DNA from: an uncultured Pelagibacteraceae bacterium | GTDB lineage: Bacteria > Pseudomonadota > Alphaproteobacteria > Pelagibacterales > Pelagibacteraceae | Assembly (NCBI GenBank): GCA_902569735.1 | Contig: CACFVE010000009.1 | Coordinates: 1 to 35,884 of the forward strand | DNA length: 35,884 nucleotides | Direction: 5' to 3' | Part shown: piece by piece, positions 15,724 to 16,077 of the stretch | Layout of the letters: every line of letters begins with the position of its first letter | Numbering within the stretch: position 1 is the stretch's first letter | The notes under the pieces: model-generated | Databases searched by the model: none | Seen by the model: the letters and a program-made list of their open reading frames with translations, nothing else | What the model was told of the DNA's origin: nothing | Program-made: the position numbers and the translations under genes

Positions 15724-15733
15724 TTTACAACCA

Positions 15734-15762
15734 TTGATCGTTTAATTATTATATATTATATT
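15734..15762 (+). promoter_or_regulatory. Promoter of the 63-aa gene
   Basis: TTGATC (15734-15739), exactly 17 nt, then TATATT (15757-15762). Seven nt downstream is 15769, the first base of the tandem structured units. The fit to sigma-70 spacing and the agreement with the start of the structured leader support it. Confidence 0.6.
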
Positions 15763-15768
15763 ACTATT

Positions 15769-15816
15769 ACCATCCACATGGTAAGAAAGTGGCTCATCTA
15801 CATGAGTTAAAAGTAG
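15769..15816 (+). ncRNA. Tandem 24-nt hairpin/pseudoknot units in a 5' leader
   Basis: Two abutting 24-nt units (15769-15792, 15793-15816) share the core CATCYACATG. In unit 1 ACCAT pairs with ATGGT around loop CCAC; after the 6-nt linker AAGAAA comes GTGG, complementary to the loop. In unit 2 CTCAT pairs with ATGAG around loop CTAC; after TTAAAA comes GTAG, complementary to that loop. Three pairs of positions differ between units (1/14, 2/13 and 7/23) and all stay paired; the other three differences are in the linker. This points to a selected RNA fold with a loop-tail pseudoknot. It lies between a promoter and the 63-aa gene's Shine-Dalgarno. A DNA operator made of two palindromes is the main alternative, but would not explain the loop-tail match. 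Confidence 0.65.
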
Positions 15817-15843
15817 GTTGAATAATATAAAACAAGGAGTGTT

Positions 15844-16035
15844 ATGGGTAGATACACAAAATTGTTAAATGAATTCAGCCGAAGCAAATCTCAGGCTGAA
15901 TTTCTTAACAAAATGCAAAAGTCCAGAAAGGCAGTTGAAGCTAATGCCAATGGAACTTCTGGATATAGAATTAAGGAAGGTGCAAATGCCGGAAAAGTTC
16001 TTAAGCATTTAAAAAAAACATCAGGGAATATTTAA
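15844..16035 (+). CDS. Small basic protein (63 aa), unknown function
   Basis: A 63-aa soluble, basic protein that I do not recognise. The first half looks helical (YTKLLNEFSRSKSQAEFLNKMQKSRKAVEA), then a Gly/Asn-rich turn (NANGTSGYRIKEG) and a Lys-rich helix end. It has a strong AAGGAG Shine-Dalgarno (15834-15839), its own promoter, a structured leader and a 10-bp terminator. In such a compact genome these full control signals suggest a well-expressed single-gene unit. The stretch starting GTSGYRIKEGANAGKVL could be a ligand or nucleic-acid contact, but that is a guess. Confidence 0.8.
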   Translation: MGRYTKLLNEFSRSKSQAEFLNKMQKSRKAVEANANGTSGYRIKEGANAGKVLKHLKKTSGNI

Positions 16036-16043
16036 CTTATATA

Positions 16044-16077
16044 GAGAGGGGTTTCAAAACCCCTCTCAAGTCTTTAC
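16044..16077 (+). terminator. Terminator after the 63-aa gene
   Basis: A perfect 10-bp stem, GAGAGGGGTT (16044-16053) with its complement at 16058-16067, closes a TCAA loop. The following T-run is weak (AAGTCTTT), but the stem is the most stable in the region and lies 8 nt after the stop codon. Confidence 0.75.

Follow-up and report, generated by a model that had tools for sequence, protein, structure and literature searches.

A tandem minimal-pseudoknot leader that exchanges with the glutamine riboswitch before a small-protein gene of SAR11 bacteria, probably a riboswitch of new architecture

Introduction

The preQ1-I riboswitch is an H-type pseudoknot assembled from a short 5' stem, an A-rich linker and a loop-tail pairing, with a larger loop for its ligand. 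Mini-ykkC RNAs (guanidine-II) were in time shown to be riboswitches, and SAM-II and SAM-V occur in series in SAR11, both reading one ligand. According to Weinberg 2010 (PMC2864571), glnA RNAs are associated with nitrogen genes and Downstream-peptide RNAs with short open reading frames (ORFs), tandem copies of glnA RNA exist and are said to give a steeper response, and the features of mini-ykkC initially pointed to a protein-bound RNA. The tandem of SAM-II and SAM-V is named in the abstract of PMC11508383. Glutamine riboswitches are described in SAR11 and OM43 phages and assigned there to the tmRNA gene (PMC9004378).

The leader described here consists of two abutting 24-nt units, each a minimal pseudoknot, before a gene for a 63-aa protein. 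Its nearest counterpart by position is the glutamine riboswitch (RF01739), found at the same place, upstream of genes that encode homologs of this protein, and the genes downstream of the leader, nitrogen genes and short ORFs, are of the kinds that accompany glnA RNA and Downstream-peptide RNA. It differs from both in matching neither the RF01739 nor the Downstream-peptide RNA (RF01704) model, and the RF01739 core CGUUC...GGAAGUA...GAAGGAACG, present in loci L092, L164 and others, contrasts with two minimal pseudoknots. The initial annotation had set the glutamine riboswitch aside on sequence, which is correct for membership, the window having no RF01739 match; that riboswitch nevertheless occupies the same place in relatives.

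With preQ1-I the leader shares the short 5' stem, the A-rich linker and the loop-tail pairing, but its loop has only 4-5 nt and lies almost wholly within the loop-tail helix; preQ1-I was rejected for want of an Rfam match and of a large loop, with no queuosine genes seen downstream. Guanidine-II resembles it in that two very small structured units follow one another and very little of their sequence is conserved, and its earlier exclusion holds, since there are no ACGR loops, the units are pseudoknots rather than plain hairpins, and the genes are others. SAM-V and the SAM-II/SAM-V tandem offer a small pseudoknot switch of SAR11 and two switches per leader (PMC2704228; PMC11508383), and were rejected for lack of an Rfam match and of methionine metabolism among the downstream genes read. 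Of the motifs that PMC2704228 describes, the eight compared here do not precede the small gene; the SAR11_0636 element of that paper, which lies between two hypothetical genes, was rejected because it folds as a junction of three stems and neighbours the gene of a SOUL heme-binding protein.

A search of Rfam 15 at curated scores, covering the window, 10 viral loci and 14 pseudoknot loci, returned no family for the feature; the 14 pseudoknot loci gave only a separate RF01739 element in L419, plus tRNAs, and the window at a relaxed E-value gave weak matches far below the cut-offs (mir-310, FTHFS, ceN44, Clostridiales-2). No description of the motif was found in the open-access literature, subscription papers and preprints lying outside the search. 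We take the leader for a cis-regulatory RNA of new architecture, probably a riboswitch.

Results

Architecture of the leader

The window, meaning the whole stretch of 35,884 nucleotides analysed, comes from an uncultured Pelagibacteraceae bacterium and contains the following features of the leader and its surroundings.

15769-15792, + strand: pseudoknot unit 1, from the letters read, with P1 and P2 covariation in homologs
15769-15773 pairing with 15778-15782, + strand: P1 of unit 1, a 5-bp stem ACCAT/ATGGT
15774-15777, + strand: loop CCAC of unit 1, pairing with tail GTGG at 15789-15792
15783-15788, + strand: A-rich linker AAGAAA of unit 1
15793-15816, + strand: pseudoknot unit 2, from the letters read, with covariation in homologs
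15793-15797 pairing with 15802-15806, + strand: P1 of unit 2, CTCAT/ATGAG
15798-15801, + strand: loop CTAC of unit 2, pairing with tail GTAG at 15813-15816
15807-15812, + strand: linker TTAAAA of unit 2
15734-15762, + strand: promoter-like TTGATC-N17-TATATT, consensus match only (9/12)
15724-15752, + strand: rival promoter site TTTACA-N17-TATTAT (10/12), overlapping and outscoring the TTGATC site
15834-15839, + strand: Shine-Dalgarno-like AAGGAG, 17 nt past the unit 2 tail, from the letters read
15844-16035, + strand: 63-aa ORF, the presumed controlled gene
16044-16067, + strand: G+C-rich inverted repeat GAGAGGGG...CCCCTCTC, 3' of the ORF, from the letters read

The architecture that the initial annotation had assigned to both units is exact, base for base, and both are abutting H-type pseudoknots. 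The two units differ at nine positions (1, 2, 7, 13, 14, 15, 16, 17 and 23), of which six form three base pairs kept in both (1-14, 2-13 and 7-23) and the remaining three lie in the linker, as had been proposed. As the loop has only four nucleotides, we infer that the U and A of its 'closing pair' probably form a tertiary element and not an ordinary base pair. An exact descriptor of the 24-nt unit, run over both strands of the window, found five single units and one abutting pair (15769, + strand); in 150 dinucleotide-preserving shuffles single units averaged 1.56, with a maximum of 5, and units never abutted.

The promoter of the earlier reading exists and would place the start of transcription near 15769, but the transcript start remains unsettled because of the better-scoring overlapping site and of the six promoter-like sites counted in the region, against 2.9 expected. 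The ATG of the 63-aa ORF lies 27 nt downstream of the end of unit 2. Beyond the ORF, the inverted repeat could possibly mark the 3' end of a one-gene transcript, and it was not called by the terminator scan; an rlmN-like gene (PF21016) follows it, and a divergent 51-aa ORF lies upstream of the leader.

The encoded protein is basic and carries a predicted N-terminal helix over residues 3-27, the model being of low confidence beyond it (mean pLDDT 70.9, pTM 0.36), together with a conserved C-terminal motif NGTSGYxIKxGxNxGKVLxH. It matches phrog_32989, of unknown function, with no match at a useful score in Pfam or NCBIfam. DUF4278 and PirA were both discarded as names on these scores, a relation to PirA still not being excluded.

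Distribution of homologous leaders

Matches to the 63-aa protein occur in 53 of 101 genomes, and two intact units lie directly upstream in 50 of the 53 host loci found through the protein, the others having a decayed pair (L029), unit 2 only (L022) or neither (L052), one locus each. Some members of the genus of the window have a long form, with an extra hairpin in the unit 2 linker or in both units (L048, L050, L051). In genome G031 (L029/L208) internal stop codons interrupt the small gene and unit 1 of the leader has lost its junction G, so that the two seem to be decaying jointly. The leaderless host locus L052 resembles the loci of cultured pelagiphages described below.

Three covariance models, R1 for the short type, R2 for the long type and R3 for diverse leaders, were built without the loop-tail pairs. 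Searched against 347 genomes of the SAR11 order, R1 gave 70 matches, 54 of them judged true, and R2 gave 26 strong matches (E < 1e-14), six in common with R1, weak R2 matches (E > 0.004) being excluded from the counts; true R1 and strong R2 matches place the leader in about 74 of the 347 genomes. The 16 R1 matches judged false comprise 13 in genus g2, plus G350, G264 and G367; among those in g2, the 10 read fall in an apparent riboflavin-synthase coding stretch, and G064, G068 and G079 have no tandem units. Across the class, R3 found matches in five of 289 genomes, confined to the SAR11 order and a second alphaproteobacterial order. In 32 genomes of this second order R3 matched 22, four of the matches being weak, and R1 likewise matched 22, corresponding to 20 ENRWG[YF] loci, the leader of genome G681 and one false match (L403, in G686).

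At least one clearly different short ORF family besides NGTxGY follows the leader. In the SAR11 loci read the downstream gene belongs to the NGTxGY family, except in three g5 genomes with a different 48-aa ORF (L149-L151), and 20 leaders of the second order are followed by ORFs whose products, about 40 aa long, share an ENRWG[YF] motif. A pattern scan of viral contigs, whose viral nature is unverified, yielded 26 loci, 21 of them tandem pseudoknots (L424, L432, L433, L434 and L442 were rejected), and a second such scan yielded three loci, all within the 26. Behind these 21 leaders stand an NGTxGY ORF in 13 cases, ENRWGY in three, a HHWILARFSQLRKIARMNRIL-like short ORF (the HHW ORF) in four and a 78-aa ORF in one; the N-terminal helix of the NGTxGY proteins may have a short relative in the HHW ORF. 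The occurrence of different ORFs under one type of leader argues for a common signal. At viral ENRWGYK loci, scanned by pattern within 180 nt, a tandem pseudoknot occurs in only one of 80 and a glutamine riboswitch in none of 80, so this protein is tied to neither switch.

The small protein is also encoded in other settings. Cultured Pelagibacter phages (L559-L568, e.g. HTVC011P, HTVC019P, Greip, Kolga) carry a short homolog, MRDxK...NGTxxYxIKxGxNxGK, with no pseudoknot or glutamine riboswitch before it and with DNA maturase genes adjoining in some; 10 of 20 phage records with an NGTxxY homolog were read, neither leader occurring in any. On 11 viral contigs (L055, L056, L057, L062, L104, L107, L113, L119, L120, L125 and L129) the NGTxGY domain is, on an apparent reading, fused to the C-terminus of a SpeD-like S-adenosylmethionine decarboxylase, a call tested with AdoMet_dc (PF02675) for L055 only and made by eye for the others; neither riboswitch was found by pattern at these fusion loci.

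Covariation of the loop-tail helices

In an alignment of 65 distinct leaders, from 68 loci chosen by us and aligned by R3 without the loop-tail pairs, 98.6% of the 1105 cells of the four helices, both loop-tail helices included, are standard pairs, compared with 82.9% in shuffles and 23-31% when one partner is slid by one to three columns. Cells changed on both sides number 169, against 37.7 in shuffles. Taken by themselves, the loop-tail helices reach 98.8% (P2a) and 99.2% (P2b) of cells paired. For 17 diverse rows, hand-picked after the pairing had already been seen, the value is 96.9% against 78.1%. A fairer test than hand-picked rows is the set of R1 and R2 matches given whole and mostly found through the protein (147 aligned rows, six of them unparsed, among these L022 and L029/L208, where the pair of pseudoknots is not preserved), where loop/tail combinations behave alike.

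Relatedness inflates cell counts, and distinct combinations are the better measure. Among 27 distinct loop/tail combinations of all types, 78 of the 81 pairs at the three junction-side positions are Watson-Crick, while 20,000 shuffles of the combinations gave a mean of 41.5 and a maximum of 56. In this count the long types were added by hand, as were the two combinations of L402, which stands outside the short-type alignment with its first tail shifted, and the misparsed row of L048 was omitted.

The conserved core is small, comprising the U before the loop (64/65 in unit 1, with C in L383, and 65/65 in unit 2), the A after the loop (65/65 in both units), the junction C-G pair (63/65 in unit 1, with one row misaligned, and 65/65 in unit 2) and AAA before the tail of unit 1 (62/65). 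Loops have 4-5 nt and end NNNC with matching tails (e.g. CCAC, CTAC, TCGC, GTAC), the spacing from loop to tail being 11 nt in short-type units and widening to about 25-32 nt with the inserted hairpin. The loop-tail helix is thus kept by compensatory change, as an H-type pseudoknot requires, and there is good support for both the fold and the position in cis. The original proposal would have fallen had homologous leaders lacked covariation or loop-tail complementarity, and the feature passed this comparison. The 'tandem, very small structured RNA' then proposed is borne out by a structure that covaries, lies directly upstream of the gene family, is intact in 50 of 53 host loci and is damaged in G031, where the gene is too; its control of the 63-aa gene is inferred from position.

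Exchange with the glutamine riboswitch

RF01739 and the tandem pseudoknot exchange before one gene. In one scan of 80 viral NGTxGY loci, RF01739 lies upstream of the homolog in 45 (17, 10, 14 and 4 of 20 each), the tandem pseudoknot in two and neither RNA was found in 33; of 10 loci tested from a first viral scan, five had RF01739 there. Within the 347 genomes of the SAR11 order RF01739 occurs in only two, G116 and G214, both of genus g8 and both before the small protein. All six g8 genomes searched encode this protein, and the other four (G157, G167, G376, G386) have the tandem pseudoknot at that place. A set of 80 loci with named contigs comprises 77 with the tandem pseudoknot (75 recognised by pattern, L230 by reading and L219 by model), two with the glutamine riboswitch (L216, L217) and one with neither (L218). 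The last comes from an actinomycete assembly (acTH1 bin), and its NGTxGY protein resembles those of the first viral scan; L218 is perhaps a viral contig within that bin.

Both RNAs stand together in one leader of the second order. In G681 (a genome 83% complete, with 5% contamination) three pseudoknot units with loop/tail combinations CTCC/GGAG, TTAAC/GTTAA and CTCC/GGAG are followed, about 11 nt past the third, by RF01739 (66.4 bits), ahead of an operon for a TorF-family porin, an ammonium transporter of the marine type (TIGR03644, 544 bits) and an amidase; the neighbouring glutamate synthase gene is divergent. This ammonium-transporter case is single, one of 30 loci scanned by pattern in that order; the other 29, fetched with up to 1500 nt of flank, showed neither RNA. 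The evidence for a nitrogen link is good.

Several further observations concern the glutamine riboswitch and its neighbours. In L297 a tmRNA match is followed at some distance by RF01739, which immediately precedes the small ORF, and the phage riboswitches tied to ssrA in publications may really concern this small ORF. Freshwater-2 RNA (RF02980) occurs in three viral contigs, L320 (2039-2122), L351 and L354 (both 2011-2083), about 330-355 nt beyond the match to the small ORF, and all three also have the glutamine riboswitch. In L405-L417, of the second order, the glutamine riboswitch precedes an ORF of 468-478 aa, which we take to resemble a circularly permuted ATP-grasp protein; its first 130 residues have no NCBIfam match, and to our knowledge this gene is not a recognised target of the glutamine riboswitch.

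Discussion

RNAs that swap before one gene usually share one signal, and RNAs common to unrelated genes are seldom autoregulatory. Because the tandem pseudoknot exchanges with RF01739 before one gene and is shared by unrelated genes, it is read as a riboswitch that reports nitrogen status, glutamine being the first candidate. Being a conserved RNA that lies in 5' leaders, in cis to the genes, it has the placement expected of a riboswitch, and 'riboswitch-like' is the best of the three options first offered (riboswitch-like, protein-binding or 5'-stabilising), though not proven. That it forms a cis-regulatory RNA class absent from Rfam 15, reading the nitrogen state and most likely a riboswitch for L-glutamine or a close metabolite, is judged modestly probable in the absence of binding or expression data.

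In the proposed mechanism, the sensor would lie close to the 5' end of the mRNA and consist of two (once three) successive minimal H-type pseudoknots, each unit would bind L-glutamine or a close nitrogen metabolite, and the tandem arrangement might sharpen the response. The leader would thereby set translation of a small regulatory protein, with more protein expected at high glutamine, as a review describes for the glutamine riboswitches of cyanobacteria (PMC6316151), and this protein would damp nitrogen assimilation. Ligand binding, ligand identity, the direction of control and the damping are all inferred, as is the expression platform. Only seven of 62 distinct leaders have an exact alternative helix of at least 6 bp (8-9 bp in four) against the unit 2 linker and tail, the partner being the segment before the Shine-Dalgarno sequence; such a helix is absent in the window and no general expression platform was found among these 62. 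In the minority that has it, formation of the pseudoknot might free the start site.

A nitrogen-responsive riboswitch with a ligand other than glutamine (2-oxoglutarate, glutamate, ammonium, arginine or another nitrogen metabolite) is unlikely, though a serious possibility. The exchange with RF01739 establishes only that both RNAs serve one kind of gene, and in the G681 leader two RNAs both reading glutamine would be redundant, whereas a switch for a second metabolite beside the glutamine riboswitch would make a two-input gate. Replacement within one genus at the same gene is nevertheless most simply explained by the same signal, and the series of SAM-II and SAM-V in SAR11 serves one ligand.

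A protein-binding site, recognised by the encoded small protein or by a trans-acting RNA-binding protein in translational feedback, is rather doubtful but cannot be dismissed, the conserved core being very small for a metabolite pocket. Repeated units with such a core, a basic 63-aa protein with a long predicted helix, and a leader and gene conserved together and both damaged in G031 would all be at home with this explanation. The leader, however, also stands before the ENRWG[YF] family, the 48-aa ORF of three genomes and the ammonium-transporter operon, and NGTxGY genes often lack it, a spread that autoregulation by a single protein does not predict; an unknown trans-acting protein remains possible.

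The leader lies close to the predicted 5' end and, in every SAR11 locus read, ahead of a short ORF; in the window 17 nt separate it from the Shine-Dalgarno sequence. Such a position could be that of a non-sensing structural leader, a cap-like 5' fold protecting short mRNAs or aiding ribosome loading. This explanation is improbable, as it predicts neither exchange with the glutamine riboswitch nor stacking onto it, and leaves unexplained why the U, the C-G pair, the A and the A's before the tail are near-strict while other pairs change. A DNA-level repeat or operator with complementarity by chance, to which the partly palindromic units (CAT...ATG cores) might point, is scarcely tenable, being contradicted by loop-tail covariation, in which loop and tail change together through many different letters, and lacking a second abutting pair in the window.

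Returning to the riboswitch for nitrogen status, the fuller proposition is that two or three pseudoknot aptamers of about 24 nt form a riboswitch class that senses glutamine or another nitrogen metabolite, replaces the classical switch and combines with it, and takes part in the control of ammonium uptake; on the present comparison of sequences we regard it as evenly balanced. The swap with the glutamine riboswitch makes glutamine a named first candidate ligand.

SAR11 cells dominate the ocean surface. One SAR11 species reportedly has a PII-independent nitrogen-limitation response, to go by the title of Smith et al. 2013. If the proposed reading is true, a compact nitrogen-status RNA would be the missing sensor for SAR11. 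Each unit, at about 24 nt, would then be an extreme case of a small natural aptamer, perhaps the smallest known by a comparison made from general knowledge, and the sensor would work in the most abundant marine bacterial group and in viruses of marine bacteria.
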